Shown here piece after piece: positions 1,961 to 20,066 of a stretch of DNA of 47,886 bases (position 1 is the first letter of the stretch; every line of letters starts with the position of its first letter). Location of the stretch: assembly GCA_001184205.1 (NCBI GenBank), contig LBMP01000011.1:1-47886 (forward strand). The letters are read 5' to 3'. The stretch is from Desulfocarbo indianensis (GTDB lineage Bacteria > Desulfobacterota > Desulfarculia > Desulfarculales > Desulfarculaceae). A model generated the notes under the pieces. That model saw nothing but the letters and a program-made list of their open reading frames with translations. It ran no database searches and was not told the origin of the DNA. The position numbers and the translations under genes are program-made.

Positions 1961-2013
1961 GACTGGACGCCTGCGCCGGCCAGATGATCCTCTTGCCCGG
2001 CCTCTGAAAAAAC

Positions 2014-2052: not shown

Positions 2053-2061
2053 ATTGGCGGG

Positions 2062-2583
2062 CTAAGCCCGGCAGACGCCGGGGCACTGGATAAAGGCGAA
2101 GGCCGAATACACCTTGGCCGCCTTTTCGATCTCGTCCTGGGAGGCGTGGTGGGGCGGGGTGGCGTCCAGGAGTTCCTGCAGGCGCTGCGGGCCGGGCACC
2201 GCCGTCAGGCCGCTGGCCAGCACCTTGCCGCTCTTGGCCTCGATGAGCTCGGCGTCCTCGCCGTTATACACCAGGCAGAAGGGAACGATGGGATCGTGAA
2301 TCAGCCTGGCGGCGGCGATGGTCTCCTTTTCGCGGCTCACCAAAGAGCCCCGGCTGGCGCGCATGACCAGGGCCGGAGCCCCGCCCGCCATGAGCACCAA
2401 ATCCGCCCGCACCTCGAAAGGCTCGCAACAGACGGTGAGCGTGCGGCGGTATTCCACCCCCAGGCGCTCGCGGGGCCAGCCCCTGTCTTCCAGAAGCAGC
2501 TTCTCGGCGGCCTGACGGATGTACTCATCGTCGTGATAAGGCAGCAGGCGTCCGGTTACCAGGTCTATGATATCTTCCGGCAT
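2062..2583 (-). CDS. HsdR N-terminal-like (HSDR_N) domain protein, last gene of che operon
   Basis: This 173-residue protein resembles the stand-alone type I restriction enzyme R-subunit N-terminal domain (HSDR_N family), a PD-(D/E)XK-fold module. Visible features are the helical start, the segment GVEYRRTLTV and the core EVRADLVLM...PALVMRASRGSLVSREKET. The usual E/D-x-K catalytic residues are not obvious here (the core has VMRASRG where ExK-type signatures would lie), so nuclease activity is doubtful. It follows cheB by 4 bases, its AGGA ribosome site overlapping the cheB stop, so it is co-transcribed with the chemotaxis genes. Its role there is unknown. No helicase or methylase partner is nearby. 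Confidence 0.7.
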   Translation of the reverse strand: MPEDIIDLVTGRLLPYHDDEYIRQAAEKLLLEDRGWPRERLGVEYRRTLTVCCEPFEVRADLVLMAGGAPALVMRASRGSLVSREKETIAAARLIHDPIVPFCLVYNGEDAELIEAKSGKVLASGLTAVPGPQRLQELLDATPPHHASQDEIEKAAKVYSAFAFIQCPGVCRA

Positions 2584-2587
2584 GGTT

Positions 2588-3643
<1,056 letters not shown>

Positions 3644-3696
3644 TTATCAGATCTGCGCCGCCCCCAGAATTTTCGCCGGCGCGGTTAAGCGCCCTG

Positions 3697-4170
3697 TCAG
3701 ACCTGCTGCGACCAGCAGCCGGCCAGAAGCGGTTTTTCCTCCACGTCGTAGGATAATACCCATTGCGCCTTGGCGGCGACTTCGCCCAGCAGACCGGCTT
3801 CCAAATGACGGGCTTGGGGCAGGTCCATGCGCCACAGGCTTTCCTTATCCACGATGGTCAAAAGGCTGCCCACCACCATGTTGAGCATCTCGCGGAAGGC
3901 GTCCAGGAGATCGTCCTGGGATACCTCCTCGGGCTCCATGGAGAATATGTTGGCGGCCAGTTCCCTGGCCAGCTCCGGCGGCGCCCAAATCCACACCATG
4001 ACGTTTTCCTCTTGTTGCTTGACCTCCAGCCAGCCCTCCAGCCAGTGCTGGGCCGGCTTGTCGGCCAGGGCTTGCGCCAGCGAGGGGTCTTCCTCGGGCA
4101 CCAGGAAAAACATGGTGGAGAAAACATCAGAAATCGAGTCCCTCAGGGCCGTCGTCCAAATCTTTTCCAT
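3697..4170 (-). CDS. cheX: CheX-type chemotaxis phosphatase
   Basis: This 157-residue protein matches the CheC/CheX/FliY phosphatase family, which dephosphorylates CheY-P. The active-site helix signature is seen around the segment DAFREMLNMVVGSLLT, supplying the conserved E and N followed by G. It has one such helix, as CheX does, rather than the two of CheC. I choose the ATG at 4170 (MEKIW...) because GGGAG lies about 6 bases upstream; a TTG five codons earlier has no such site. With this start the gene overlaps cheY by 44 bases, which is unusually long, but the first residues belong to the conserved N-terminal helix, so a shorter start is unlikely. It lies directly downstream of its likely substrate gene, cheY. 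Confidence 0.82.
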   Translation of the reverse strand: MEKIWTTALRDSISDVFSTMFFLVPEEDPSLAQALADKPAQHWLEGWLEVKQQEENVMVWIWAPPELARELAANIFSMEPEEVSQDDLLDAFREMLNMVVGSLLTIVDKESLWRMDLPQARHLEAGLLGEVAAKAQWVLSYDVEEKPLLAGCWSQQV

Positions 4171-4546
4171 CGGGCTCTCCCACAAACAGGCTTAGTATCT
4201 TCCGCAGGCCCTCGGGCTGGAAAGGCTTGGAGACGTAGCCGCGGGCGCCCAGGCCCAGGGCCTGTTTCAGGCGGTCCTTGCGCCCTTCGGTGGTGACCAG
4301 GATGAAGCACTTGGGCACCCGGTTCTGGTCCTTCAGGGTCTCCAACAGTTCCAGGCCGTTCATCTCCGGCATGTGCAAGTCCGAAAGCACCACGTCCACC
4401 GGGTGCTCATCAAGCACGGCCAGAGCCGCCAGGCCATGCTCGGCCTCGTAGCATTCATCCACCGCGAAGCCGGCGGCGGCCAGGGTTTTCTTTATCACCG
4501 AGCGCATGGCCCGGGAATCGTCCACTATCAACACCTTCAGACCCAT
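4127..4546 (-). CDS. cheY: CheY-like single-domain response regulator
   Basis: A 139-residue stand-alone receiver. The acidic pair is D9/D10, the phospho-acceptor D56 (LSDLHMP), the switch residue T85/T86 and the conserved lysine K107 (SKPFQP). CheY-P is the diffusible output of the CheA pathway. A short acidic C-terminal tail (about residues 122-139) extends past the receiver and is encoded by the part that overlaps cheX. The ATG at 4546 has GGAG about 7 bases upstream. Its position between the HDOD gene and cheX suggests a CheA-CheY-CheX signalling and termination loop. Confidence 0.92.
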   Translation of the reverse strand: MGLKVLIVDDSRAMRSVIKKTLAAAGFAVDECYEAEHGLAALAVLDEHPVDVVLSDLHMPEMNGLELLETLKDQNRVPKCFILVTTEGRKDRLKQALGLGARGYVSKPFQPEGLRKILSLFVGEPDGKDLDDGPEGLDF

Positions 4547-4562
4547 AGGTTCGCTCCCTCCC

Positions 4563-5414
4563 CTAACGGGCCATGTTAAGTAACTCGTCGGCCTGGTCCA
4601 GGATATCCTTGAGTTCCAGGCTCAACTTGTCCAGGTCCCTCGACTTCAGCCCCACTTCCTGTAGAAGGCCCTGGGGCACGGGAGCGGCCAGGCCTTGGGC
4701 CCCGCTGCCCACTCCCAAGTTAACCACCAAAAGATTGGCCAGGGACACCAGACGGACGATGGCCCTATGCTTCTTGGCGGGTTCTAAATTATGATGAAAA
4801 GCGATGGCATGGCAAATGGGTTCGGGCAAATTCCACTTGCGGGCCACGGCCGCGCCCAAAAGAGCGTGATCCAGACCCAGAACCTTGCGCTCGGCGTGCA
4901 CAAAGGACATGCCCTGCTCGTTGACCAGCTTTTCTATCTCGTCGAACTTCTCGCCCACGTGCTCGCTCAAAACCAGCTTGCCCACGTCGTGCAGCAAGGC
5001 CCCGGTGAAAAGCGTGGGCAGATCGGGATAGTTCAGGCGCTCGCCCAGGCGCTGGGCCATGAGGGCGGTGGCCATGGAATGGCGCCACAATTCCCCCCGG
5101 GCCAGGCGGTAGCCGTATTGGGGCTTTTTGAAATGCCCCACCACCTTGCCGGAAAGCACGATCTCCACGATCTGGTTGGAGCCCAGATAGGCTATGGCCT
5201 GGTCCAGGGAAGAAATCTTGTTGCGCAGGCCGTAGAAGGGGGAATTGCATATCCTGAGCACGTCGGCGGTTATGCCCGGATCGATGCGCACCAGATCCGC
5301 AACTCTTTGGAACTCGAAGTCGGGATCGCTGACGATGAGCAGTATCTGCTGCACGATGGCGGGCATGCCCGGCAGATGCTCGACTTTGGCCAGTATTTCT
5401 TCCACCAGCTTCAC
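4563..5414 (-). CDS. HDOD domain signalling protein
   Basis: This 283-residue protein consists mainly of an HDOD domain (about 10-205), recognisable from LPGMPAIVQQIL near the start, the LVRIDPGITADVLRICNSPF block and a degenerate HD-like GALLHDVGKL segment near the middle. HDOD proteins are helical signalling proteins related to HD phosphohydrolases and often accompany chemotaxis or c-di-GMP systems. HDVGK keeps the HD pair but the other metal ligands are not clearly arranged, so catalytic activity is uncertain. The start is a GTG at 5414 overlapping the cheD stop by 4 bases (GTGA), a strong sign of translational coupling in the che operon. Confidence 0.85.
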   Translation of the reverse strand: MKLVEEILAKVEHLPGMPAIVQQILLIVSDPDFEFQRVADLVRIDPGITADVLRICNSPFYGLRNKISSLDQAIAYLGSNQIVEIVLSGKVVGHFKKPQYGYRLARGELWRHSMATALMAQRLGERLNYPDLPTLFTGALLHDVGKLVLSEHVGEKFDEIEKLVNEQGMSFVHAERKVLGLDHALLGAAVARKWNLPEPICHAIAFHHNLEPAKKHRAIVRLVSLANLLVVNLGVGSGAQGLAAPVPQGLLQEVGLKSRDLDKLSLELKDILDQADELLNMAR

Positions 5415-5896
5415 AGCGACTTGACCTCCGCTCCGTTTGTCTTAACCCATAGCCGGCCATTGCCCACTTCCAGGCCCACGGTGCGGTTCACGTTGCCGCC
5501 CACGTCCTCCTTGTCGATCAATACGTTGTTGCGCCAGAATATCTTACGCACCATGGCGTAATTGCGCTTGCCGATATTGAAATGTCCCGAGGCGTCCATC
5601 ACCTGGCTGCCGCCCACCACCACCACCCGCAGGCGGCCCTTCTTGGCGCCCAATTGATAGGCCTTTTTGAAAAGCAGGGGCAGGCCCGTATCGGCGAAAA
5701 CCCCCGGCTGATTCCTGGCCCGCTCCGGATTCAGGTTGGAATCCGGCAGCATGAGGTGCAAGAGGCCGCCTACGCAGGCCGCGGCGTCGTGGATGATGAC
5801 CCCGATGCAGGAACCCAGGGAATAGGTGACCAGCTCGGCGCCGCGTTTGTTGGACACGGCCAGATCGCCCACCCCTATGATGATCTTTCCCGACAC
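5411..5896 (-). CDS. cheD: Chemoreceptor glutamine deamidase CheD
   Basis: CheD deamidates glutamines of chemoreceptors and can interact with CheC/CheX-type phosphatases. The 161-residue protein has the family's catalytic triad T24, C30 (SLGSCIG) and H47 (LLHLMLP), each three residues past the T. maritima positions T21/C27/H44. The GTG start at 5896 overlaps the last base of the cheR stop. The length fits the family (about 155-165). Confidence 0.95.
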   Translation of the reverse strand: MSGKIIIGVGDLAVSNKRGAELVTYSLGSCIGVIIHDAAACVGGLLHLMLPDSNLNPERARNQPGVFADTGLPLLFKKAYQLGAKKGRLRVVVVGGSQVMDASGHFNIGKRNYAMVRKIFWRNNVLIDKEDVGGNVNRTVGLEVGNGRLWVKTNGAEVKSL

Positions 5897-6804
5897 TATT
5901 TGTTCTCCCTGCGGTACACAGCCGGCCGCACAAAGGCCAGGCGGTGCTGGATACCGGTCAGGCTCTCCGAATGGCCCACGAACAAGTAGCCGCCCGGCGC
6001 AAGACAGTCGTGGAATTTATGCACCAGGCGTTCCTGCGTGGGTTTATCGAAGTAGATCATAACGTTGCGGCAGAAGATAACATGAAAAGGATGATCGAAC
6101 TTGAAGGGGTCCATCAAATTGACCCGGCGGAATTCCACGATTTCCCGCAGTTCGGGCCTGACCCGCACGTGGCCCTCCCAGCGGTTGCGCCCTTTTTGAA
6201 AATAGCGGGTCAAAAGCGCCCGTGGGATGCAGGCCGCTCTTTCCATGGTGTACACGGCGCGGCGGCCGTGCTCCAAAACCTGGGTGGACAGGTCCGAGGC
6301 CAAAAGCTTGACTCCCCGCCGCTGCCAGCATTGCTGGTTTTCCTTGAGCACCATGGCCAGGGTGTAGGGCTCCTCCCCGGTGGAGGAGGCCGCCGACCAG
6401 AGGCGGAAGGGAGCGCTGGGGCCGCAGAGCTTGTCGAGCTTGGGCAGGATGTCCCGGGCCAGGAAATCGAAATGCTGCGGCTCACGGAAGAAATCGGTTT
6501 TGTTGGTGGTGATGCAGTCCAAGAAGCAAACCAGCTCCGTGCCGCTGGCGTCGCTTTCCAGATTGCGGATGTAATCCCGTACGTCATGACAGCCCGTGGC
6601 ACGCAGCCGCTTGGCCAGGCGCGCCTTCATAAGCTCTTTCTTGCTGTCGCCCAGGTTGATGCCGCACAGGCGGTATACCAGCTGGGCCAGCTTCTTGTAC
6701 TGGGCGTCGGTGATGCTCAGGCCGAAGCTGGAGCCAAAGCTGGCCGCCTCTCCGGCTTGGCCACCCGCCTCAGCGGACGATGTAGAGCGCCGGTTGGTTC
6801 GCAT
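5896..6804 (-). CDS. cheR: Chemoreceptor glutamate methyltransferase CheR
   Basis: CheR methylates receptor glutamates using S-adenosylmethionine. Key segments are the N-terminal helical domain, the SAM-binding motif around SAASSTGEEPYTLAM, the CRNVMIYFD strand and the terminal GHSESL. The reading frame stays open up to 6942, overlapping cheW, but I choose the ATG at 6804 (MRTNRR...), giving 302 residues, close to the usual 270-290. The first 30 residues are low-complexity (Ser/Ala/Gly). The ribosome site there is weak (AAAAAGACC), so the start is less certain than the gene. Confidence 0.93.
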   Translation of the reverse strand: MRTNRRSTSSAEAGGQAGEAASFGSSFGLSITDAQYKKLAQLVYRLCGINLGDSKKELMKARLAKRLRATGCHDVRDYIRNLESDASGTELVCFLDCITTNKTDFFREPQHFDFLARDILPKLDKLCGPSAPFRLWSAASSTGEEPYTLAMVLKENQQCWQRRGVKLLASDLSTQVLEHGRRAVYTMERAACIPRALLTRYFQKGRNRWEGHVRVRPELREIVEFRRVNLMDPFKFDHPFHVIFCRNVMIYFDKPTQERLVHKFHDCLAPGGYLFVGHSESLTGIQHRLAFVRPAVYRRENK

Positions 6805-6898
6805 ATTGGTCTTTTTTATCGCCTTGTGTCGCTGATAGGCGTCAGCATGCAAGCCGGCAACGGCGAAACGCGCGCGCAAGGCTGATTCTATGAAGGCG

Positions 6899-7429
6899 TC
6901 AACCCACCACCAGTCGGCTTTCCTGCACGATGCGGTCGACATCCAAGAGAATCTTCACCCCGCCCTGGGTTTTCGCCATTCCCATGATAAAGGCGGTGTC
7001 CAGGTTAGTGCCAAAGGCAGGCGTGGCGTCGATGTCAGCGGCGCTCACGTTAAGCACTTCATTGACCTGATCAACCACCATACTCATAAGTATGCGCCGT
7101 CCGTCGTCTTTTGTCACCTCCACCACGATGATGCAGGTGCGTTCGTCGGGCTCGCGGTATTCCTGGTTGAACCGCAGGCGCAGGTCCATCACCGGGATAA
7201 CCTTGCCCCGTAAATTGATCACCCCCAGCAGAAAGTCGGCGGTTTGCGGCACCGGGGTGATGTCCAAGACGCCCAGGATTTCCCGGATCTTGGTTATCTC
7301 GATCCCGAATTGCTCGCCGGCCAGAAAAAAGGTGAGATACTTGCCGGCCAGGTGGCTGACGTCCCTGCCCGCCTTGGCCTGGAGTTCGCTGGAATCGTCA
7401 TGCTCTTGGGAAACAGGTTCCTGGTTCAT
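6899..7429 (-). CDS. cheW: Chemotaxis adaptor CheW
   Basis: CheW couples chemoreceptors to CheA. The 176-residue protein has about 28 hydrophilic N-terminal residues, then a CheW domain with TFFLAGEQFGIEI and the conserved GVINLRGKVIPVMDL block near the middle. The ATG follows the cheA TAA stop immediately with no gap, so translation is likely coupled. About 94 bases separate its stop from the chosen cheR start. Confidence 0.95.
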   Translation of the reverse strand: MNQEPVSQEHDDSSELQAKAGRDVSHLAGKYLTFFLAGEQFGIEITKIREILGVLDITPVPQTADFLLGVINLRGKVIPVMDLRLRFNQEYREPDERTCIIVVEVTKDDGRRILMSMVVDQVNEVLNVSAADIDATPAFGTNLDTAFIMGMAKTQGGVKILLDVDRIVQESRLVVG

Positions 7430-9700
7430 TTAACCCCTCCGGCCTTCATGGGCCCTGAACACGCCTTCCACATCCAGGATAAGGCCCACCCGGCCGTCGC
7501 CCATGATGGCGCCGCCGGCCACTACCTTCACGCCTTTCAGGCTTTCGCCCAGGGATTTGATGACCACTTCCTGGCGGCCCACCAGACGGTCCACCAAAAG
7601 GCAGCGCTTCTGCCCGTGATGCTCCACCACCACCAGGAGAGCCTCCCAGGGGTTGCGTTGGGAAGGTTCCACGCCCACGATGCCGTGCAGCCTTATTAGG
7701 GGCAAGAGCGATCCCCGGATCATGATCATTTCGCCGCGGCCCTGCACGGTGCTGTAATCCTTTTCATTGGGCCGCAGGGATTCGGCCACGCTGATGGTGG
7801 GCAGGATGAAGCGCTCCACGCCCACCTCCACCACCATGCCGTCGATAATGGCCAGGGTGAGCGGCAGGGCGATTATGAAGGTGGTGCCCTTGCCCAGTTC
7901 GCTGGATATCTCCACCTTGCCGCGCAGCTCGTCGATGGTGCGCTGCACCACGTCCATGCCCACGCCGCGCCCGGAGATTTCGGTCACCACCTCGGCGGTG
8001 GAAAAGCCGGGCTTGAAGATGAGGTGATAGGCCTCTTCCTCGCCCAGGTTTTCCAGGTCTTCCTCCGTGATGATTTCGTTCTCCAGGGCCTTGGCCACGA
8101 TTCTTTCGCGGTCCAGCCCATTGCCGTCGTCGCGGATTTCGATGCAGACGTTGCCGCCCTTGTGATAGGCGGCCAATACCACGGTGCCCTCCTCGGGCTT
8201 GCCGGCGGCCAGGCGCTCTTCCGGGGATTCGATGCCGTGGTCCACCGAGTTGCGCACCATGTGCATCAGGGGATCGTAGAACTTCTCCACCATGTTGCGG
8301 TCGATCTCGGTGCCTTCGCCTTCCAGCTCCAGGGCCACCTTGCGGCCGCGCTTCTTGGCGGTGTCGCGCACCACGCGCACCATTTTCTGGAAGGTCTGCT
8401 TGATGGGCACCATGCGCATGCTCATGGTGGTTTTCTGCAGCTCGGTGGTGATGCGGCTCAGTTGGCCCAGATCGGCCACGAGCTTGCGGTCGCTTATGGC
8501 CTGCACGTTGGGATTGGCCCGCACCATGGAGCCGGCGATGACCAGCTCGCCCACCATGTCCAGCAGGTTGTCCAGCTTGACCGTGTCTATCTTGACCTCT
8601 TGCACGGCCAGGCTCTTGGCCTGGGGCTGGCTCATGGCCTTCTGGGTCTTGAGGGCGCCGGCCACCTGGCTGGGCTTGGCCGCGCCCTCGTGCACCAACA
8701 GCTCGCCCAGGGGGCGCAGGGCGCCTTCCTTCTGGCGGCTTAAGGCCTGTTCCACCGCCTCGGGCGGGATGCCGTCGCTCACCAGCAGTTCGCCCAGGGG
8801 CGGCGCCTCGGGCTTGGCTTGGGCCGGGGCGGCCTCGGCCTCGGTCTCGCCGGCCGAGTTTATGACCTGCTCTATCCTGGCTTCCAGCGAGGCGGTGTCG
8901 AAGGCGGTGCGCGGCCGCCTTTCCGAGGCCGCGGCCTGGGATTCGTTGATCATCTGGCGGAGGACGTCCACCCCGGCCAGGATGATGTCGATGGCCACCG
9001 ACTCTATGATGAGGCTGCCGGAGCGCGCCTGGTCCAAAAGGTTCTCCAGGGCGTGGGCCAGATGGTTTATGTCCTGCAGATTCAAAAAGCCGCTCACGCC
9101 CTTGATGGTGTGGAAGGGGCGGAAAACGGCGTTGAGCGCTTCCTGGTCCTGGGGGCTGTCCTCCAGGAGCAGGGTGTTGACCTCTATGGATTCCAGATGC
9201 TCCAAGGCCTCGGCCACGAAGCCGCTCAAGAGCTCCTCGTCCTCGGGAGTGAAGGGCTCCGCCTCGGCCGGCGGCGGCGCGGCCTCGGCCTCCGGGGCCT
9301 CGGCGGCCGGCGCGGGCCGGTCTGCGCCCGCCTGGGGCGCGGCGCCGGCGGCCAGCTCCTCGGCGCCGGGCATGTTGTAGGCGGCCAGGAATCCCTGCAG
9401 GGCCGTGGCGTCGGATTCGCCGCGGAACACGGATTGCCCCATGGCCACCCCTTCGCTCAAGGCCTGCACGCCCTTGTCCTGATCCTGATACTCGCCCAGG
9501 ATCATGGCCTCCAGGTGGGCCTTGAGCGAATCGGACAAACGGGCCAACAGGGGCTCGCCGGCTCCATCGCAGATTATCGATAGCTGCTCCAGGCGGGACA
9601 GCACGTCGCCATAGGTCATCAGGTCCCCGGGCTCCAGCACCACCACCTCGGCGGCCAGGTCGTCGAGCAGGGAACCGATCACTTCCTTCTGATCAGACAT
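7430..9700 (-). CDS. cheA: Chemotaxis histidine kinase CheA
   Basis: First gene of the che operon; 756 residues from the ATG at 9700. The order is: a helical N-terminal region (1-115), an Ala/Pro/Glu-rich linker, an Hpt domain with phospho-accepting H197 (FHTIKG), a second linker with two tandem LGELLV-type repeats (about 301-325 and 330-354), the dimerisation domain starting near 368, the HATPase domain (NSVDHG, DDGNG, GRGVGMDV) and a C-terminal CheW-like domain. A classical P2 CheY-binding domain is not recognisable. A GTG 10 codons upstream is possible, but GGAGG lies about 12 bases before the ATG. Confidence 0.95.
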   Translation of the reverse strand: MSDQKEVIGSLLDDLAAEVVVLEPGDLMTYGDVLSRLEQLSIICDGAGEPLLARLSDSLKAHLEAMILGEYQDQDKGVQALSEGVAMGQSVFRGESDATALQGFLAAYNMPGAEELAAGAAPQAGADRPAPAAEAPEAEAAPPPAEAEPFTPEDEELLSGFVAEALEHLESIEVNTLLLEDSPQDQEALNAVFRPFHTIKGVSGFLNLQDINHLAHALENLLDQARSGSLIIESVAIDIILAGVDVLRQMINESQAAASERRPRTAFDTASLEARIEQVINSAGETEAEAAPAQAKPEAPPLGELLVSDGIPPEAVEQALSRQKEGALRPLGELLVHEGAAKPSQVAGALKTQKAMSQPQAKSLAVQEVKIDTVKLDNLLDMVGELVIAGSMVRANPNVQAISDRKLVADLGQLSRITTELQKTTMSMRMVPIKQTFQKMVRVVRDTAKKRGRKVALELEGEGTEIDRNMVEKFYDPLMHMVRNSVDHGIESPEERLAAGKPEEGTVVLAAYHKGGNVCIEIRDDGNGLDRERIVAKALENEIITEEDLENLGEEEAYHLIFKPGFSTAEVVTEISGRGVGMDVVQRTIDELRGKVEISSELGKGTTFIIALPLTLAIIDGMVVEVGVERFILPTISVAESLRPNEKDYSTVQGRGEMIMIRGSLLPLIRLHGIVGVEPSQRNPWEALLVVVEHHGQKRCLLVDRLVGRQEVVIKSLGESLKGVKVVAGGAIMGDGRVGLILDVEGVFRAHEGRRG

Positions 9701-10060
9701 GCTTTTGAGAATCCTCCACCAGGTGTTCACTCTTCAGGCGCGGGACAGGCAGGAGCGCCTTGGTGTGGCTCCGTCCGCAAGGAGTGGGCTCGGACAGCCA
9801 TGACGAAGCGCGACACTATATTAAAATATATGCGGCCAAAACTGCGGGCAAGCTTTAAGTTGCATATTATGGCCTTTATCTTGCTTAAATAGCCGAATAA
9901 ATGGCCGCAAGCGCGCATGCCCATCCCCGCCAAGAACGATTCTGCCTTGGGATGGATGGGCATGTGCGTCTTGATCCGGTTGCCTAAGGCTCGCGGCGGG
10001 CCGCCCCTCAAGAGGGGGAGCCGGCCGGGGCGGCGCCCGAAACGCCGGAACAAAGCTGGT
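9701..10060. other. Intergenic region upstream of the che operon
   Basis: This 360-base stretch lies between HU (ending at 10061) and cheA, both on the minus strand. It should hold the che promoter. An AT-rich patch (about 9815-9900) contains several TATATT/TAATAT-like hexamers, but no single promoter stands out. It also contains a long imperfect inverted repeat at 9916-9964. I see no convincing gene. Confidence 0.5.
9916..9964. repeat. Long imperfect inverted repeat (hairpin)
   Basis: The arms CATGCCCATCC (9916-9926) and GGATGGGCATG (9954-9964) are perfectly complementary, and an inner CCAAG/CTTGG pair (9930-9934 with 9946-9950) extends the stem past a 3-base internal loop. The 11-base loop is AACGATTCTGC. 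No T-run follows on either strand, so it does not look like a standard terminator. It could be an RNA structure, a protein-binding site or the remains of a palindromic repeat. Confidence 0.7.
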
Positions 10061-10348
10061 TTAATTTAAAAGGTTTTTAACCTGGGCGCTGGGTTTGAAG
10101 ACCATGCGCTTTTTGGCTTTGATCTTGATCGGCTCGCCGGTGGAGGGATTCACGCCTTTGCGGGCCTTGCTCTTCTTGAGCGCGAAAGTGCCCAGCCCCG
10201 CCACGCGGAAAGCCCGGCCAACCTTGACCTCTTTGCGGGCCATGTCAACAAAGGACTCGATGGCGGTTTTGGCGGCCGCCTTGGAAATCCCGGCGTCCTT
10301 GGCAACTTTGTCGATCATGTCCGCCTTGGTCATAGGTTTTTTAGCCAT
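10061..10348 (-). CDS. HU/IHF-family nucleoid DNA-binding protein
   Basis: This 95-residue protein has the HU/IHF fold. The family signature is GTFALKKSKARKGVNPSTG around residues 52-70, with the beta-arm proline P68 that intercalates into bent DNA. The extra N-terminal residues (MAKKPMTKADMI) are lysine-rich, as is common in Desulfobacterota HU homologues. HU bends DNA and compacts the nucleoid. The ATG at 10348 has AAGGAG 5 bases upstream. It is a single gene between the che operon and the divergent dcw promoter. A more specific IHF assignment is not possible by eye. Confidence 0.93.
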   Translation of the reverse strand: MAKKPMTKADMIDKVAKDAGISKAAAKTAIESFVDMARKEVKVGRAFRVAGLGTFALKKSKARKGVNPSTGEPIKIKAKKRMVFKPSAQVKNLLN

Positions 10349-10856
10349 GCCGTCTCCTTATTCCTGCTTGGTTTCCCCCGGGCTGGTCCCTCTGCCGTTC
10401 AGAGGGGGGTAACCAGGCCGACGGGCAGTTTGCAATCTGGAAGCCTGGTAATATCGCGATCCAGCCCTGGCTCAAGGACGCCGCACCTGAAATGGCCCGA
10501 TAAACACGGAGCATTCGTGGGGCGCCCACGACGCAAGCCAGAATATCACTGCTTCGCGCCGGGAGTCAACCCGAAATTATCAAGCATTTAAGGCTAGTGC
10601 GAATGTGGAGCCCCGGCGGTTCCCCTGGGTCAGCCCAGACGGCTCCCCACTTTGCGCCACCAAAAAATCCGACAAGCGCCTCCCTCTAAAAAGCCTATTT
10701 AGCGGCCCGTGGCGATGCCCTGTTAATATTTATAAATAAAACAATGAGTTATAATTTTATTGCCTTGAAAGTGGCATATATATCCCTATCGCCCAAAAAC
10801 GGTGGCACGCGGCTTTGCCCTGGCGGAGGCGAGGGGGAAAAGATCGTGTTTTCTTC
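10349..10856. other. Long intergenic region between HU and the dcw promoter
   Basis: No convincing gene is present. The left part should contain the HU promoter; a possible minus-strand match (TTGAGC, 16-base spacer, TATTAC near 10450-10480) is weak. A small hairpin CTGGG-TCAG-CCCAG lies at 10625-10638. An AT-rich island at about 10722-10765 contains a perfect TATAAT (10750-10755), but the hexamer 17 bases upstream is a poor -35. The island lies about 100 bases upstream of the mraZ promoter. Confidence 0.5.
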
Positions 10857-10886
10857 TTGACATACCCCCAGGGAGCCCCCTATAGT
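10857..10886 (+). promoter_or_regulatory. Sigma-70-type promoter of the dcw cluster (PmraZ)
   Basis: A consensus -35 TTGACA (10857-10862) is followed after 18 bases by TATAGT (10881-10886). This is the strongest promoter match in the window and sits about 55 bases before the mraZ start. Four AGTGG repeats begin within the -10 and run into the transcribed leader. Confidence 0.85.
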
Positions 10887-10918
10887 GGGGCCCAGTGGAA
10901 GTTAGTGGGGAATAGTGG
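10884..10918 (+). promoter_or_regulatory. MraZ box array: four AGTGG repeats at exact 10-bp spacing
   Basis: AGTGG begins at 10884, 10894, 10904 and 10914, one per 10 bases. In studied bacteria MraZ binds a run of TGGGN/GTGGR repeats separated by about 5 bases upstream of mraZ and represses its own operon. The array overlaps the -10 element and the start of transcription, which fits autorepression. Confidence 0.85.
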
Positions 10919-10946
10919 GTAATTGTCCCTTGAGGCGAGGCGACAG

Positions 10947-11387
10947 GTGTTCACCGGTTGGTCAGTACATAGCCTGGACAGCAAGGGCCGCTTGGCGGTG
11001 CCGGCCAGGTTCCGCGACGTGCTCAAAGCGCTGCGCGACGACCGTCTGGTGATAACCACCTCGGACCGCTGCCTGGTGGCCTACCCCCAGGAAGACTGGC
11101 GGGCCCTGGCGGATAAGATCAGCCGCCTGAGCCAGCTGGACCCCAGGGTGCAGGCCTTTCGCCGCTATTTCATAAGCGGCGCCACCGATTGCACCTGCGA
11201 CAAGCAGGGACGGGTGTTGATCCCCCAAGCCCTGCGGGAAATGGCCGGTTTGGAAAGTCAGGTTCTCTTGGTGGGCATGCAGAGCAATTTCGAGATTTGG
11301 GACAAGGACCGCTGGTACTCGGCGCGCGAGGAAATCCGCGCCAACTTCGGGGACCTCTCTTCGTTCATGGCCGAACTGGGAATCTAG
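10947..11387 (+). CDS. mraZ: Transcriptional regulator MraZ
   Basis: MraZ is a ring-forming AbrB-fold DNA-binding protein that controls the dcw cluster. The 146-residue protein has two SpoVT/AbrB-like repeats, each with the DxKGR signature: SLDSKGRLAVPARFR near residues 9-23 and TCDKQGRVLIPQALR near 81-95. I prefer the GTG at 10947, which gives the family-typical MFTG start and has GAGG 6 bases upstream; an in-frame TTG at 10923 would add 8 residues. It is the first gene of the dcw operon, followed by rsmH after 3 bases. The four AGTGG repeats in its own promoter point to autoregulation. Confidence 0.95.
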   Translation: MFTGWSVHSLDSKGRLAVPARFRDVLKALRDDRLVITTSDRCLVAYPQEDWRALADKISRLSQLDPRVQAFRRYFISGATDCTCDKQGRVLIPQALREMAGLESQVLLVGMQSNFEIWDKDRWYSAREEIRANFGDLSSFMAELGI

Positions 11388-11390
11388 GCC

Positions 11391-12341
11391 ATGGGCGAGA
11401 AACACCGGCCGGTGATGCTGGCCGAGGTGATCGAGGCCCTGGAACCCCAACGCGGCGGATTGTTTGTGGACGGCACCGTGGGAGCTGGAGGGCATGCCGC
11501 GGGCGTCTTGGAAACCGCCGCTCCCGGCGCCCGTCTCTGGGGGCTTGACCGAGACCCTTCGGCCCTGCGATTGGCCAGCGAGAGGTTAGCGGTCTTTGGG
11601 AACCGGGTGAAGCTTTGGCAGACCACCTTCGACCGCTTGGGCGATTGCCTGGCCCAAGAGGGCGAAGACGGCGCCGATGGCATCCTCCTGGATTTGGGGG
11701 TTAGTTCCATGCAGCTCGACGACCCGGGCCGTGGCTTTGCTTTTCGCTTCGAGGCGCCCTTGGACATGCGCATGGGCGGCCAAGGCCCCGGCGCGGCCCA
11801 ACTGGTAAACGAGTTGGACGAAAACCAGCTGGCCCGCCTTTTCAGGGAATTGGGCGAGGAGCCCCAGGCCCGGCGGGTGGCCCGCGCCGTCATCAGCGAG
11901 CGGGAAGGGAATCCCATCACCACCACCGGCCGGCTGGCCGCGGTGGTGGAGGAGGCCCTCACCGCCGCCGAGAGGCGCAAGCGCAAGCTGCATCCGGCCA
12001 CCCAGGTCTTCATGGCCCTGCGCCTGAAGGTTAACGACGAATTGGGCCAGTTGGAGCGCTTTTTGGAAAGCGCGCCCGGCTGGCTGAAGCCCGGAGGCAG
12101 GTTGGCCATCATCAGTTATCACTCCTTGGAAGACCGCCGGGTCAAGCGCGCCATGCGGGCCTGGGCCCAGCCCTGCACCTGCCCGCCGGAGCTGCCGGTT
12201 TGCGCCTGCGGCCGCAAGCCCCTTTTCGATCTGCCCTTCCGCAAGGCCAGGCAAGCCCGCGCCGAGGAAATCGCGGCCAATCCGCGGGCGCGCTCGGCCC
12301 GCCTGAGGGTGGCGGTGCGCACCGGGGAGGCCCTGTCATGA
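11391..12341 (+). CDS. rsmH: 16S rRNA m4C1402 N4-methyltransferase RsmH (MraW)
   Basis: RsmH methylates the N4 of C1402 in 16S rRNA. The 316-residue protein has the SAM-binding start DGTVGAGGH, the GLDRDP acidic strand and the C-terminal SYHSLEDRRVKR motif that is diagnostic for the family. The insertion-domain segments and length (usual 300-320) agree. The ATG at 11391 is 3 bases after the mraZ stop; the stop overlaps ftsL by 4 bases. Confidence 0.97.
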   Translation: MGEKHRPVMLAEVIEALEPQRGGLFVDGTVGAGGHAAGVLETAAPGARLWGLDRDPSALRLASERLAVFGNRVKLWQTTFDRLGDCLAQEGEDGADGILLDLGVSSMQLDDPGRGFAFRFEAPLDMRMGGQGPGAAQLVNELDENQLARLFRELGEEPQARRVARAVISEREGNPITTTGRLAAVVEEALTAAERRKRKLHPATQVFMALRLKVNDELGQLERFLESAPGWLKPGGRLAIISYHSLEDRRVKRAMRAWAQPCTCPPELPVCACGRKPLFDLPFRKARQARAEEIAANPRARSARLRVAVRTGEALS

Positions 12342-12655
12342 GCGTGAGCGTGCGGGTGGCCAACCGGCGCCAGGTGCGGGCGGTGAGCCTGGAGGGCCTT
12401 AGCCTGAAGCGCCTTTTGACGTTATTGATAGTGGTCACCGCGGTGGCCCTGTTTTACGCTTTCGCCTCGGTCAGGGCGCAGAATCTTTCTTTTCAGGTGA
12501 GCCGCGAGCTGGAAACCCAGCGCGAGCTGCGCGAGACCGGCCGGCGCTTGCGGGTGGAGCTGAACATCCTGCGCTCGCCCGAGCGCCTGGAAAGAGTGGG
12601 GGCCCGCCTGGGCCTGCAGCCGCCCGAACCCGCCCAGAAAAGGGTGCTCAAGTGA
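12338..12655 (+). CDS. ftsL: Cell division protein FtsL
   Basis: FtsL is a small bitopic divisome protein that works with FtsB/FtsQ and activates FtsWI. The 105-residue product has a basic cytoplasmic start, one membrane segment at about 28-47 (LLTLLIVVTAVALFYAF) and a periplasmic coiled-coil-like helix rich in Arg/Glu/Leu (about 50-90). The ATG overlaps rsmH (ATGA) and the stop overlaps the ftsI GTG. Sequence alone is weakly conserved; identification rests on the topology and its fixed position between rsmH and ftsI. Confidence 0.9.
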   Translation: MSVSVRVANRRQVRAVSLEGLSLKRLLTLLIVVTAVALFYAFASVRAQNLSFQVSRELETQRELRETGRRLRVELNILRSPERLERVGARLGLQPPEPAQKRVLK

Positions 12656-14640
12656 ACGCGCGCCAGGAAGCGCGGGAGAGGCAATGGCTGCGGCTCCGGC
12701 TGTGGCTGGTGGGGGCTTTTTTCGGCCTGGCCTTTGTGGTGCTCTTGGGACGCGCCGTGCATTTGCAGCTGTTCCAGCACCAGGAGCTTACCGCCCGCGC
12801 CCAGCGCGAGTTCCTCAAGCAGGTGGAGATAGCCCCGCGCCGCGGCATCATCTTCGACCGCAACCAGGAAGAACTGGCGGTGAGCCTGGACACCCACAGC
12901 GTGTACGCCTCGCCTTTGAAGATCACCCAGCCGCGCGGGGTGGGCCGCAGCCTGGCCGCGGCCCTGGGCCTGCCCGCCCAGGAGGTGATCAAACGGCTGA
13001 GCGGCGAAAAGGGCTTTGTCTGGATCGCCCGCCGGGTGAGCCCGGACAAGGCCGAGGCCGTGAAGAAATTGGAGCTGGAGGGCGTGGGCCTGGTCATGGA
13101 GCCTCGGCGCTTTTACCCTTACACCACCCTGGCCTGCCACGTGCTGGGTTTCGCCGGGTTGGACGCCCGCGGCCTGGAGGGCCTGGAAAAGGGGCACGAC
13201 CGGGTGCTCAAGGGGCAGAGCCACACCCTCACCAGCCTGCGCGACGCGCTGGGCCGCACCATACACCTGACGCCCGCCGCCCTGACCAAGCTGCCCGAGG
13301 GCAACCACCTGATGCTCACCTTGGACAAGGGCATCCAGTACCGGGCGGAGAAAATCCTGGCCGAGACCGTGGCCAAGTACCGGGCCAAGGGCGGCCAGGC
13401 CATCGTCATGATTCCCCAGACCGGCGAGATCCTGGCCCTGGCCTCGCTGCCGGCCTTCAATCCCAACGTGTTCGCCAGCTATCCCCAGGAGGTCTACCGC
13501 AACCGGGTGCTCACCGACACCTATGAGCCCGGCTCCACCTTCAAGACCTTCGTGGCCGCGGCCGCCCTCATGAGCCACAAGGTGACCCTGGACCAGCTTT
13601 TCGACTGCGAGCAGGGCGCCTGGCAGATCGGCGGCCGCACCATCCACGACACCCACGAATACGGCAAGCTGAACCTGGCCGACGTAATCAAGCTTTCCTC
13701 CAACATCGGCGCGGCCAAGGTGGGCCAGACCATCGGCGCTGACGAATTGTATAAGACCATCCAGGCCTTCGGCTTCGGCCAGGGGACCGGCGTGGACCTG
13801 CCCGGCGAGTCGCGGGGCATCCTGCGGCCGGTGGGGGCCTGGCGGCCGGTGGAATTGGCCAACATCTGCTTCGGCCACGGCGTGGCCGTCACCGCCCTGC
13901 AGATGGCCCAGGCCTTCGCCGCCATAGCCAACGGCGGCGTGTTGATGAGGCCCTACGTGGTGCGGGCCGAAGTGGATTCCAGCGGCCATCTGATCGCCGA
14001 GACCCAGCCTCGGGTGGTGCGGCGGGTGATGAGCGCCCGCGAGGCGCGCATCCTGACCGGCATGCTGCAAAGGGTCACCGAGGAAGGCGGCACCGGCACC
14101 AGGGCCAGGGTGGGCTCATTGCCCGTGGCGGGCAAGACCGGCACCGCCCAGAAGGTGAACCCGGGCGGCGGGTATTCGCGCAGCGAATACATGGCCAGCT
14201 TCATGGGCTTCCTGCCGGCCGACAATCCCCAGATCGTGGTGGCGGTGATCATAGACACGCCCCGCGGCCAGCACTACGGCGGCGTGGTGGCCGGGCCCGC
14301 CTTCAGCCAGATCGCGCGGGCCTCCCTGGACGTGCTGGGCTGGCAGCCCGAGGCGGGCTTGCAGACCGCCCGGGAGCCCAAGGCCGCCCCGGCCCCCGCC
14401 CTGGCCAAGGCCAAGCCCCTGGACCCGGAGCTGGCCGAGATGGAGCCCAAGCATCTGCTGGCCTTGGGCCTGGCGCCCGATCTCACCGGCTACACCCTGC
14501 GCCAGGTCTTGGACATGTCCGGCATGGTGCGCCTGAGCCTGCAAGGCTGGGGACGGGTGGTGGCCCAGGAGCCCGCGCCCGGCCGGCCCTTGAGCAAGGG
14601 ACTGAGCCTGCGCCTGGCTCCCCAGGGGGGAGGGGCCTGA
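12652..14640 (+). CDS. ftsI: Septal peptidoglycan transpeptidase FtsI/PBP3 with C-terminal PASTA domain
   Basis: FtsI cross-links septal peptidoglycan in the periplasm. The 662-residue protein has an N-terminal membrane anchor (about 17-38), a pedestal dimerisation domain, and a transpeptidase domain with the active-site motifs S295-T-F-K298, S349-S-N351 and K495-T-G497. After an Ala/Pro/Lys-rich linker (about 572-590) it ends in one PASTA domain (about 600-662), as in SpoVD-type and many deltaproteobacterial enzymes; E. coli FtsI lacks it. The start is a GTG overlapping the ftsL stop (GTGA). The stop overlaps murE by one base. Confidence 0.97.
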   Translation: MNARQEARERQWLRLRLWLVGAFFGLAFVVLLGRAVHLQLFQHQELTARAQREFLKQVEIAPRRGIIFDRNQEELAVSLDTHSVYASPLKITQPRGVGRSLAAALGLPAQEVIKRLSGEKGFVWIARRVSPDKAEAVKKLELEGVGLVMEPRRFYPYTTLACHVLGFAGLDARGLEGLEKGHDRVLKGQSHTLTSLRDALGRTIHLTPAALTKLPEGNHLMLTLDKGIQYRAEKILAETVAKYRAKGGQAIVMIPQTGEILALASLPAFNPNVFASYPQEVYRNRVLTDTYEPGSTFKTFVAAAALMSHKVTLDQLFDCEQGAWQIGGRTIHDTHEYGKLNLADVIKLSSNIGAAKVGQTIGADELYKTIQAFGFGQGTGVDLPGESRGILRPVGAWRPVELANICFGHGVAVTALQMAQAFAAIANGGVLMRPYVVRAEVDSSGHLIAETQPRVVRRVMSAREARILTGMLQRVTEEGGTGTRARVGSLPVAGKTGTAQKVNPGGGYSRSEYMASFMGFLPADNPQIVVAVIIDTPRGQHYGGVVAGPAFSQIARASLDVLGWQPEAGLQTAREPKAAPAPALAKAKPLDPELAEMEPKHLLALGLAPDLTGYTLRQVLDMSGMVRLSLQGWGRVVAQEPAPGRPLSKGLSLRLAPQGGGA

Positions 14641-16175
14641 TGATGCTGGGCGATCTCCTCCATAGCCTGCCCCGGGCCAGACTGCACGGCGCGCCTCCCC
14701 AAGTGGAGGTCAGCGGGCTCACCTATGATTCGCGCCAGGTGCGGCCGGGCATGCTGTTCGCGGCCTTGAAAGGCGGCGCGGCGGACGGCCACGCCTTCGT
14801 GGCCCAGGCCGCGGCGGCGGGCGCGGCGGCGGCCCTGGTGGAGCGGCTGGTGGCGGGCGCGGATATCTGCCAGGTGCAGGTGCCGGATTCCCGCGCGGCC
14901 CTGGCCCGCCTGGCGGCGGCGTATCAGGGAAACCCCAGCCACGGCATGACCGTGGTGGGCGTCACCGGCACCAACGGCAAGACCACCACCAGCTATCTGG
15001 TGGAGGCGGTTTTGGCCGGGCGGGGCCCCACCGGCGTCATCGGCACCGTGGAAACCCGCTTCGCCGGCCAGGCCGCGCCGGCGGCCATGACCACCCCGGA
15101 ATCGGTGGAGCTGCAAGGCCTCCTGGCCCGCATGCTGGCCGCCGGGGTGGGCCGGGCGGTGATGGAGGTTTCCAGCCACGCCCTTTGCCAGCACCGGCCG
15201 GACGGGGTGGAGTTCGACGCGGCGGTGTTCACCAACCTCACCCGCGATCATCTGGACTACCACGGGAGCATGGACGCCTACCTGGCGGCCAAGCTACGGC
15301 TCTTCCGCGAGCTGCTGCCGGAATCCAGAGCCGCCGGCAAGCCGGGCACGGCGGTGGTGTGCCTGGACGGCCCTTACGGCGGGGCCGTGGCCGGCGCGGC
15401 GCTGGAAGCGGGCCTCCCCTTGTGGACCTATGGTTTTCACCCCGAGGCCCGGGTGCGCGGCCTGGAGCCCGGTCTGAGCCTGGCGGGCGGCTCCTGCCGG
15501 GTGGTTTGGCCGGGCGGCGAGTTCGCCGCGCACACGCCCCTGGTGGGCCGCTACAACCTGCAAAATCTCTTGGCGGCCTGCGCCGTGGGCCTGGCCCTGG
15601 GCATGGGGCCCGAGGATATCGCGGCCGGCCTGGCCGCCTGCCCCGGCGTGCCGGGCCGCTTGCAGAGGGTGGGCGGCCCCCAAGCCCGGCCGGCGGTTTT
15701 CGTTGACTACGCCCATACCGACGACGCCCTGAGCCAGGCCCTGGGCGCGCTGAAGCCGCTTACCAAGGGCCGCCTCATCTGCGTTTTCGGGGCCGGCGGC
15801 GACCGGGATCATGGCAAGCGCCCCCTCATGGGCCTGGCCGTGGGCCGGGGAGCCGATTCGGCGCTGCTCACCTCGGACAACCCGCGCACCGAGGAGCCCG
15901 CGGCCATCCTGGCCATGATCGAGCCGGGCCTGCGCGAGGCCGGCCAGCGGCGGATAAACTCTCTGCGCGAAGGCGCGGGCTACGTGGTCCAGGCCGACCG
16001 GGCCGCGGCCATCGCCATAGCCATCGGGGAAGCGGATGAATCGGACGTGGTGCTGATAGCCGGCAAGGGCCACGAGGATTATCAGATCATCGGCCGGGAG
16101 AAACGCCATTTCGACGACCGCGAGCAGGCAACGGCCGCCTTGCAAACCCGCGCCCAGGGAGGCGGCCATGCCTAG
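14640..16175 (+). CDS. murE: UDP-MurNAc-tripeptide synthetase MurE (meso-DAP type)
   Basis: MurE adds the third stem-peptide residue to UDP-MurNAc-L-Ala-D-Glu in the cytoplasm. The 511-residue protein has the ATP-binding GTNGKTT loop (110-116) and the C-terminal motif D413-N-P-R416, which marks meso-diaminopimelate specificity; lysine-adding MurE has a different sequence. This predicts Gram-negative-type DAP peptidoglycan. Two adjacent ATGs exist (14640 and 14643). The first overlaps the ftsI stop by one base; either could be used. The C-terminus overlaps murF by 8 bases. Confidence 0.97.
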   Translation: MMLGDLLHSLPRARLHGAPPQVEVSGLTYDSRQVRPGMLFAALKGGAADGHAFVAQAAAAGAAAALVERLVAGADICQVQVPDSRAALARLAAAYQGNPSHGMTVVGVTGTNGKTTTSYLVEAVLAGRGPTGVIGTVETRFAGQAAPAAMTTPESVELQGLLARMLAAGVGRAVMEVSSHALCQHRPDGVEFDAAVFTNLTRDHLDYHGSMDAYLAAKLRLFRELLPESRAAGKPGTAVVCLDGPYGGAVAGAALEAGLPLWTYGFHPEARVRGLEPGLSLAGGSCRVVWPGGEFAAHTPLVGRYNLQNLLAACAVGLALGMGPEDIAAGLAACPGVPGRLQRVGGPQARPAVFVDYAHTDDALSQALGALKPLTKGRLICVFGAGGDRDHGKRPLMGLAVGRGADSALLTSDNPRTEEPAAILAMIEPGLREAGQRRINSLREGAGYVVQADRAAAIAIAIGEADESDVVLIAGKGHEDYQIIGREKRHFDDREQATAALQTRAQGGGHA

Positions 16176-17562
16176 GCTGGACGCTGAATTCGCGGCGCGG
16201 GCCATCGGCGCCGAGGTGAGCGGGAATTGCCCGCCGGAGGCCTTCAGCGGCGTGGGCACCGATTCCCGCGCCATCGCGGCCGGCCAGCTTTTCGTGGCCT
16301 TGAGCGGGCCCAATTTCGATGGCCACGATTTCGTGGCCGGCGCGCTGCAAGCCGGCGCGGCGGCGGCCGTGGTGCGCCGGGGTTTCAGCCTGGAGGCCGA
16401 CCCCGAGGCCTGCCTCTTGGCGGTGGAGGACACCACCCGCGCCCTGGGCGACCTGGCCGCGGCCTGGCGGCGGGAGCACAGCGCCCTGGTGGCGGCGGTC
16501 ACCGGCTCCAACGGCAAGACCACCTGCAAGGAGATGCTGGCCGCCATCCTGAGCCAGCGCCACCGCGTCTTGAAAAACCGGGGCAATTACAACAACCACA
16601 TCGGGCTGCCCCTGACCCTGCTCCAGCTCAGCGGCGAGCATACCGCCTGCGTGGTGGAGATGGGCATGAACGCTCCCGGCGAAATAGCCCGCCTCACCGA
16701 AATAGCCGCCCCGGAGGCCGGGGTGGTCACCAACGTGGGGCCCGCCCATCTGGGCCGCCTGGGGTCATTGCAGGCCATCGCCGCGGCCAAGGCCGAGCTT
16801 TTCCTGGGCCTGTCGCCGGCGGCCACGGCGGTGGTCAATCTGGATGATCCCCTCTTGGCTCCCTATGCCGAGAGCCTGGCCTGCCGGGTGATTACCTTCG
16901 CCCTGGAAAAAAACGCCCAGGTGCTCGGGCGCGATGTCAGCGCCCTGGGCTCCAAGGTGGCCTTCAATTTGGAACTGCCCGCCGGCCCTGCGGTCCGGGT
17001 GCGCCTTTCCGCGCCCGGCCGCCATAACGTGATGAACGCCCTGGCCGCGGCGGCCACGGCCTGGGCCTTGGGGCAGGGCGCGGAGGCCATCCAGGCCGGC
17101 CTGGAAGCGTTCGCGCCGGTCAAGGGGCGCTTGCAGCCCACGCGGTCCTTCTGGGGCTACACCGTGTTGGACGATACCTACAACGCCAATCCGGCTTCCC
17201 TGGCGGCGGGCCTCCAGGCTTTGCGGGATTTGGCGGGCGGCCGGCGCAGGGCCCTCATCCTGGGCGACATGCGCGAGCTGGGCCCCACCGCCCCCCGGCT
17301 TCATCAGCAAGCCGGCCGCCTGGCGGCGGAGCTGGGCTGCGCCCTGGTGCTGGCCCTGGGCGAGCGGGCGCAGGACGTGACAAGCGGGGCGCGGGCCGCC
17401 GGCCTGGATGAAGAGTCGGCCCAGGCCTTCCGGGAACTTGACGCGCTGGTTTGGGCGGCGCGGGACCTCTTGCGCGAGGATGACGTGGTGCTGGTAAAAG
17501 GTTCGCGCAGCGCGCGCATGGAACGGGTGGTGGCGGCGCTCACCACGGGGGAGATGAGCTGA
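16168..17562 (+). CDS. murF: UDP-MurNAc-pentapeptide synthetase MurF
   Basis: MurF ligates D-Ala-D-Ala to the UDP-MurNAc-tripeptide. The 464-residue protein has the ATP-binding motif TGSNGKTT (112-119), the Mur-ligase central domain with [13 protein letters not shown], typical of MurF, and the C-terminal [12 protein letters not shown] segment. The ATG lies inside the end of murE (8-base overlap) and the stop overlaps the mraY start. No ddl gene accompanies it, so D-Ala-D-Ala ligase must be encoded elsewhere. Confidence 0.97.
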
Positions 17563-18644
17563 TGCTGTATCATTTGCTCTATCCCTTCCGCGATATCTTC
17601 GGCGGCTTCAACGTGGTGCGCTACATCACCTTCCGCAGCATCTGGGCGGCGCTGTTCGCCCTGGTCATAGTCTGGCTTCTGGGCCCCTGGTTTATCCGCA
17701 AGATGCGCGAACTGCAAATGGGCCAGTACATCCGCGAGCTGGGGCCGGAAAGCCACAAGGCCAAGGCCGGCACCCCCACCATGGGCGGCGTGCTCATATT
17801 GCTGGGCGTCACCGCCTCCACCCTGCTCTGGGGCCGCCTGGACAGCTTCTATCTGTGGCTCTGCCTCCTGGTCACCCTGGGCTGCGGCGCCATAGGTTTT
17901 ATCGACGATTTCCGCAAGGCCGTGCAGAAGCGCAACGAGGGCGGGCTTTCCGCCCGGGCCAAGCTGGCGCTTCTGGGTTCGCTCAGCCTGGCCGCGGCGG
18001 CGGCCCTGTATCTGCACCCCGGCTACAGCACCCAGCTATCCTTGCCCTTTATCAAGTTCGTGGTGCCGGATTTGGGCTGGGGCTATGTGCTGTTGGCGGT
18101 GTTCATCCTGGTGGGCACGGCCAACGCGGTGAACCTCACCGACGGCCTGGACGGCCTGGCCGCCGGCCCGGTGCTCATCGCGGCGGCCACCTTCCTGGTG
18201 CTCAGCTACGTGAGCGGCAACGTGAAGGCCGCGTCGTATCTACAGATACAGTACATCCCCGGCGTGGGCGAGATCGCGGTTTTCCTGGGCGCGGTGGTGG
18301 GCGCGGTCATGGGATTTCTTTGGTACAACGCCTATCCCGCCCAGGTCTTCATGGGAGACACCGGCAGCCTCTCCCTGGGCGGGGCCCTGGGCGCGGCGGC
18401 CATTTGCACCAAGCACGAAATTCTTCTGGTTCTGGTGGGCGGCATCTTCGTGGTGGAGGCGGTCAGCGTGATCTTGCAGGTGGGCTTTTTCAAGGCCACC
18501 CATGGCAAGCGCATCTTCAAGATGGCTCCGCTGCATCACCATTTCGAGCTGATGGGCTGGGCCGAACCCAAGGTGATCGTGCGTTTCTGGATCATCGCGG
18601 TGGTGCTGGCCTTGATCGCCATCTCCACCCTGAAGCTGCGCTGA
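17562..18644 (+). CDS. mraY: Phospho-MurNAc-pentapeptide translocase MraY
   Basis: MraY transfers phospho-MurNAc-pentapeptide to undecaprenyl phosphate, forming lipid I in the inner membrane. The 360-residue protein is strongly hydrophobic with about ten membrane segments and carries the family's conserved cytoplasmic motifs: DDFRK (about 112), [10 protein letters not shown] (about 190), [11 protein letters not shown] (about 265) and the HHHFE cluster (about 323-327). The ATG overlaps the murF stop by one base. It is followed by a 72-base gap holding a possible 21-codon frame. Confidence 0.98.
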
Positions 18645-18654
18645 GGTGGTGACC

Positions 18655-18720
18655 ATGAGCAAGGCCGAGGGGGAATCGCTGGCGGTTAGTAAATTTTTCA
18701 GCAACGAGGTTTCAGCTTGA
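18655..18720 (+). CDS. Possible 21-residue leader peptide between mraY and murD
   Basis: An ATG at 18655, preceded by GAGGTGGTGACC, opens a 21-codon frame (starting MSKAEGESLAV) whose TGA overlaps the murD TTG (TTGA). This is the only mraY-to-ftsQ junction with more than a few bases between genes, and the arrangement would couple murD translation to the mini-frame. The peptide has no recognisable domain. It may be an uncharacterised small protein, a translational relay or chance. Confidence 0.35.
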   Translation: MSKAEGESLAVSKFFSNEVSA

Positions 18721-20066
18721 ACTTGCGAGGCAAAAAAATCCTGGTGGTCGGGCTGGGCTCCAGCGGGGCGGCGGCCGCCAGGCTGTGCCTTAAGCATGGC
18801 GCCCAGGTCATCGCCACCGACCAGGCCCCTGGCCCCTCCGGCGCGGCGGCGGCCAGGGAAGCCGGGGCCGAGCTGCACTTGGGCGGGCATCGGCCGCAGG
18901 ATTTCGCTTGGGCCGAAATAGTGGTCCTGTCGCCGGGGGTGGATCAACGCCTGCCCGAGGTGCGGGCCTCGGTGGAGCGCGGGGCCGAGGTGATCGGCGA
19001 GCTGGAGCTGGGCTGGCGCTTCCTGAACGCGCCCTCGGTGATGATCACCGGCACCAACGGCAAAAGCACGGTGACCAGCCTGGTGGGCAGCATGCTGGCC
19101 CAGGCGGGCAAAAGAGTTTTCGTGGGCGGCAATCTGGGCACGCCCTTGTGCGATTTCCTCAATCGCGGTGAAGAAGTCGATTGGGTGGTGCTGGAGGTCA
19201 GCTCGTTTCAATTGGACACCGCCAGCAGCCTGCGGCCCAAGGTGGGGGTGCTGTTGAACATCAGCCCGGACCATCTGGACCGCTACCGGGACCTGGAGGA
19301 ATACGCGGCCAGCAAGTACAGCCTCTTTAAAAATCAAGGCGCCGGCGACGTGGCGGTGCTCTGCCTGGATGATCCCGAGGTGGCCGCCCGCGCGGAAGCC
19401 TGCCCGGCCCTGGTCTGGGGTTACGCGGCGCGGGGGCCGGTGGAGCCCGGCGGCTGGCTCATGGACGACGACCTAATCATCGCCGCCCAAGCGGGCACCG
19501 GGCTGAAGCTGTCCGTTAAAGCCAGCAAGCTGCACGGCCGTTTCAACCGGCTCAACATCCTGGCGGCGTCCCTGGCCTCTTTGGCGGCCGGCGCGCCGGT
19601 TTCCGCGGTGCAGGACGCCATCGACACCTTCCAGGGCCTGCCCCACCGCCTGGAGTTGGTGGAGCGCCGCGACGGGGTCTTCTGGTTCGATGACTCCAAG
19701 GGAACCAATGTGGGCGCGGTGGCGGCGGCTTTGGAGGCCCTGGAATTATCGGCCATCCTTTTGCTGGGCGGGCGCGACAAGGAAGGCAGCTTCGCCGACC
19801 TGGCCCCGCAAATCAAAAAATACGTGCGCCGGGTTATTTGCTTCGGCGAGGCGGGGCCCTCCATCCACGGCCAGGTGAAGGGCTTGGTCGAGAGCCGGCT
19901 GGCGGCCGATCTGGCCGAGGCGGTGGCGATAGCCCGGCAAGAGGCCCAGGCGGGAGAAGCGGTGCTGCTGTCGCCCGGCTGCGCCAGCTTCGACGCCTAC
20001 ACGGGTTACGCCCAACGGGGCGAACATTTTCAGGCCCTGGTCAAGGGCCAACCCTGGAAGAGCTGA
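18717..20066 (+). CDS. murD: UDP-MurNAc-L-alanine:D-glutamate ligase MurD
   Basis: MurD adds D-glutamate to UDP-MurNAc-L-Ala. The 449-residue protein starts with a Rossmann-like domain (VVGLGSSG), followed by the ATP-binding TGTNGKST loop (111-118), the central-domain SSFQLDT and NISPDHLDRY segments, and the C-terminal DDSKGTN motif that is characteristic of MurD. The start is a TTG at 18717 with GAGG 7 bases upstream; no ATG or GTG fits better, because the first Rossmann strand follows at residue 8. It precedes ftsW by one base. Confidence 0.96.
   Translation: MNLRGKKILVVGLGSSGAAAARLCLKHGAQVIATDQAPGPSGAAAAREAGAELHLGGHRPQDFAWAEIVVLSPGVDQRLPEVRASVERGAEVIGELELGWRFLNAPSVMITGTNGKSTVTSLVGSMLAQAGKRVFVGGNLGTPLCDFLNRGEEVDWVVLEVSSFQLDTASSLRPKVGVLLNISPDHLDRYRDLEEYAASKYSLFKNQGAGDVAVLCLDDPEVAARAEACPALVWGYAARGPVEPGGWLMDDDLIIAAQAGTGLKLSVKASKLHGRFNRLNILAASLASLAAGAPVSAVQDAIDTFQGLPHRLELVERRDGVFWFDDSKGTNVGAVAAALEALELSAILLLGGRDKEGSFADLAPQIKKYVRRVICFGEAGPSIHGQVKGLVESRLAADLAEAVAIARQEAQAGEAVLLSPGCASFDAYTGYAQRGEHFQALVKGQPWKS

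Follow-up and report, generated by a model that had tools for sequence, protein, structure and literature searches.

A predicted four-box MraZ operator overlapping the -10 element of the mraZ promoter in Desulfocarbo indianensis

The question at this locus is what kind of element is formed by four evenly spaced AGTGG repeats running through the promoter in front of mraZ, and what a protein bound to them would do to transcription. All of the features concerned lie on the + strand of the window (the whole stretch of DNA analysed, 47,886 nucleotides). The -35 element TTGACA (10857..10862) is followed, after a spacer of 18 nt, by the -10 element TATAGT (10881..10886), and this TTGACA-N18-TATAGT promoter, an 11/12 match, is the best in positions 1-20000 of the window. 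The first-pass annotation had located the repeats correctly to the base: box 1 (10884..10888), box 2 (10894..10898), box 3 (10904..10908) and box 4 (10914..10918) have starts that step by exactly 10, 10 and 10 bp along the promoter. It had also placed the start of the first box within the -10 element, and the A-G-T of box 1 is indeed the final three bases of TATAGT. Transcription of mraZ would start at about 10892-10895, some 7 nt past the -10 element, which puts box 2 at the expected start. The end of box 4 is separated by 28 bp from the GTG of mraZ (10947), and between the two the purine-rich stretch GAGGCGAGG (10932..10940) is the probable ribosome-binding region of the gene. Upstream of the promoter, the sequence TGGCAC-N6-TTGC (10803-10818) resembles a sigma-54 site, with a spacing one base too long.

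The gene behind this promoter is mraZ (10947..11387), coding for 146 amino acids (MFTGWSVHSLDSKGR...DKQGRVLIP...). Its start is set at the GTG and not at the mechanical TTG at 10923, because the GTG gives the MF-G N-terminus of the family. The product has two halves, with the DxKGRLxxP-type motif, and passes the curated cut-offs of both TIGR00242 (121.2 bits, cut-off 98.35) and PF02381 (105.8 bits, cut-off 23). It is followed by rsmH (mraW, 11391..12341, TIGR00006), ftsL (12338..12655, assigned from its position in the cluster and from a weak match to TIGR02209, E 9e-7, below the curated cut-off), ftsI for the septal penicillin-binding protein (12652..14640) and murE (14640..16175), the last two by profile match. 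The order mraZ-rsmH-ftsL-ftsI-murE is the head of the dcw cluster, where MraZ is expected. A structure model of the product (pLDDT 91, monomer fold only) matches the PDB entries of the M. pneumoniae and M. genitalium MraZ, with a TM of about 0.77 to the M. genitalium MraZ in 9sz7, a cryo-EM entry described as "MraZ in complex with 4 box promoter".

Could the repeats have arisen by chance? AGTGG occurs 23 times on the + strand and 21 times on the - strand of the window, and at this frequency about 4e-9 four-box arrays would be expected per window; three GTGG at 10-bp steps are seen in 0 of 60 Markov-1 copies of it. Across the 5.1-Mb genome, both the exact AGTGG three-box pattern and the GTGG four-box array with at most one mismatch are found at the mraZ promoter only. 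Chance repeats are ruled out by the low expectation, the Markov-1 copies and this uniqueness taken together, and a wider MraZ regulon in the genome is also rejected, no second four-box array having been found in the 5.1 Mb. Two other exact three-box GTGG matches exist in the genome; judged by the ORFs there, the only basis on which they were assessed, they gave no clear case. The genome also holds a second TTGACA-N18-TATAGTGG promoter (G000:C279:377483-377514, L174:584-615) that lacks the box array, and this array-less promoter offers a natural control against which the effect of the boxes can be judged.

We then ask whether the array is kept among relatives, the closest named ones of the source genome being Desulfarculaceae MAGs. 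An exact GTGG four-box array stands at mraZ in 17 of the 20 family genomes searched and is present with a single mismatch in 1 more, while two of the 20 have no four-box array at mraZ within one mismatch. Box 1 lies inside the -10 element in nearly all family genomes that carry the array, so the placement over the -10 is itself conserved in Desulfarculaceae. Among 19 aligned family promoters, all of which have TTGACA as the -35 element, the box cores average 18.8/19 identity per column as compared with 12.8/19 for the spacers, as an operator should. Relative to the G of box 1, the -10 columns T(-4), A(-3), G(0) and T(+1) are the same in 19/19 promoters. The middle of the -10 element varies across the family (TATAGT, TAATGT, TAAAGT, TATTGT) while the G and T that it has in common with the box are invariant; the box is therefore preserved at the places where the -10 departs from its optimal sequence. 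The best conserved stretch of the array goes beyond a box core: it is box 3 with the GGAA that follows it (GTGGGGAA at 10905-10912 of the window, and in the relatives). One relative (G003) has a 10-bp tandem minisatellite of GTGGACAGGT/GTGGACACCT that is unrelated to mraZ (L175, G003:C1:1932400-1933400), and a second cluster of the same units near 2488500.

To place the array in a wider context we use a sample of 152 distinct mraZ upstream regions, nearly all from Desulfobacterota with a few from other phyla, in which the mraZ starts are placed by an iterated profile. The distances between GTGG pairs in these regions fall at 10 bp in 229 cases, at 9 bp in 0 and at 11 bp in 2, with about 1 expected for each. 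At least three boxes at exact 10-bp steps are found in 108 of the 138 regions assigned to a family and in 48 of 61 families. This census extends an experimentally known operator to the phylum. The box consensus, AAAGTGG(G/T), equals the published MraZ site (AAAGTGKN3)3 (PMC5282649). With more than the minimum of three direct GTG(G) boxes spaced 10 bp apart ahead of mraZ, a real mraZ-dcw cluster downstream and conservation across the family, the four-box array is, as judged from sequence, an MraZ operator of the known kind, as had been supposed.

The known systems give the basis for comparison. The Pmra promoter of E. coli K-12 likewise has GTGG boxes at exact 10-bp steps by a TTGACA promoter just ahead of mraZ, and there MraZ represses its own operon, which is what we propose for the mraZ of Desulfocarbo. 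E. coli has three exact boxes, AGTGG-N5-TGTGG-N5-AGTGG, plus an AGGG in register, a few bases past the -10 (the final T of the -10 and the T of its box 1 are 9 bp apart), whereas Desulfocarbo has a fourth exact box one step upstream, inside the -10. In B. cenocepacia, the promoter PmraBc carries four 7-nt repeats with 3-nt spacers, again a 10-bp step, that overlap the mapped start site and are bound by MraZ in gel shift (PMC7761207); it differs in that the repeats are described as downstream of the -10 and the start site is 100 bp before mraZ (PMC7761207). The mycoplasma site (AAAGTGKN3)3 and the complex in 9sz7 have the same core and 10-bp step as found here, with four boxes bound by MraZ in 9sz7, but the mycoplasma MraZ is only about 25% identical to that of Desulfocarbo and the comparison covers the boxes.

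This comparison bears on how the first-pass annotation had read the four boxes: it took them to cover both the -10 and the transcription start, and from this it argued for autorepression by steric block rather than by an upstream operator. Their position over the -10 is seen directly, their position over the start holds for a start placed from the -10, and cover of the promoter still makes steric autorepression the natural reading. The contrast with an upstream operator falls away, as the boxes of E. coli and Burkholderia cenocepacia also lie past the -10 and over the transcription start. Because these two species share it, cover of the start site is the norm for such operators, and only the one-box shift that places box 1 in the -10 differs from theirs. 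No new principle emerges from the mraZ promoter in the window.

How would the operator act? An MraZ ring is predicted to read one box per helical turn, all on one face of the DNA, and a fully bound array would span the -10 and the start site to about +26 (about -9 to +26). Because of this cover, MraZ and RNA polymerase would be mutually exclusive. Box 1 would hold the -8 G and -7 T of the -10, so that one and the same box may be read by the sigma factor and by MraZ alike. As MraZ accumulates it would shut off its own operon (mraZ, rsmH, ftsL, ftsI, murE) in a negative feedback. We put the probability of this whole explanation, with MraZ on the four boxes excluding polymerase and feeding back on the dcw operon, at roughly 0.87, and the likeliest mode of action is autorepression, with MraZ covering the -10 together with the start site.

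The sign of the regulation cannot be read from sequence, because MraZ represses in some species, E. coli and M. genitalium among them (PMC8475190), and is described as an activator elsewhere, namely in other mycoplasmas (as cited in PMC7761207). That activator role is what would speak for MraZ on the four boxes being an activator or a dual regulator instead of a simple block to polymerase. We consider this unlikely here, since a protein bound over the -10 and start site, as on these boxes, would normally keep polymerase out, and since MraZ represses in E. coli, where the boxes have almost the same position. The repeats might also act without MraZ. The array contains four G-runs (GGGG, GG, GGGG and GGG, at 10885-10919), and in S. 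aureus a similarly G-rich segment that follows the mraZ promoter has been reported as a G-quadruplex (PMC11796246), which is proposed to exert the control there. The S. aureus motif was read as a quadruplex and not as MraZ boxes; the conservation in the present survey favours MraZ boxes. It is limited to GTGG, the third G being present in only 181 of 402 surveyed boxes, so that runs of at least three G are not a conserved feature and a conserved quadruplex is rejected. Neither the exact 10-bp step nor the conserved T is required by a quadruplex, and the repeats fit the MraZ site, which together make quadruplex control of the dcw promoter very improbable.

The transcript would have a leader of roughly 54 nt that includes about three of the four boxes, and one could imagine a structured or translational control element in the RNA. 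This is the least credible of the readings: the leader folds no better than its shuffles (z = 0.44) and no Rfam match is found in it, so that an RNA element is not supported, while box 1 lies upstream of the expected start site and the array in some relatives reaches almost to the start codon.

The next question is whether the overlap of box 1 with the -10 is peculiar to this family. For the surveyed promoters in which both the -35 and the -10 are good, there are two common placements of the first box, inside the -10 (n=33) or 4-14 bp past it (n=49), and the one-box shift into the -10 also occurs in some eight to ten further families within the phylum. The overlapping placement tends toward a fourth box: four boxes are found in 25 of the 33 overlapping promoters and three in 38 of the 49 later-starting ones. 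Counted by family, four boxes occur in 7/11 overlapping as against 7/31 later-starting families (Fisher p = 0.024), a contrast chosen after the data were seen and one in which 2 of the 11 overlapping families (f42, f52) depend on doubtful promoters. Presumably MraZ works at the 49 promoters with later-starting boxes too, and the -10 overlap would for this reason not be needed for function. Such natural variants allow one to ask in what way the strength of the dcw feedback is determined by the number of boxes and by where they lie.

In several other families a lone GTGG stands just behind the TTGACA (L028, L029, L034, L036, L071, L078, L086, L138, L139 and L144); this extra box adjacent to the -35 is absent from the window and from Desulfarculaceae. 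Its distance to the -35 varies while its distance to the array is mostly fixed, the first array box being 21 bp away in 7 cases and 31 bp in 6, with about 0.6 expected per distance, and the neighbouring distances of 20, 22, 30 and 32 bp being seen in 2, 0, 0 and 1 cases. A search of 395 genomes, which overlap the first survey set, gives mostly 21 and 31 bp again. It adds a single new family (f106, 31 bp) and otherwise yields families already seen, along with exceptions such as lone boxes at 18 and 22 bp. The fixed 21/31-bp lone box is suggestive, a lead and not a result. It is possible, though we rather doubt it, that Desulfobacterota follow a spacing rule, apparently undescribed in the accessible literature, of 10 bp within a box unit with an extra base between units. 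If true, the entire core promoter would be bracketed by MraZ in the lone-box families, whereas in Desulfarculaceae the array merges with the -10 itself. MraZ has been reported to bind a mycoplasma site with a spacing off by one base (PMC5282649). One mraZ promoter in the survey (L115, G075:C1:77210-78010) has six boxes arranged as three, an 11-bp step and three more, all other steps being 10 bp.
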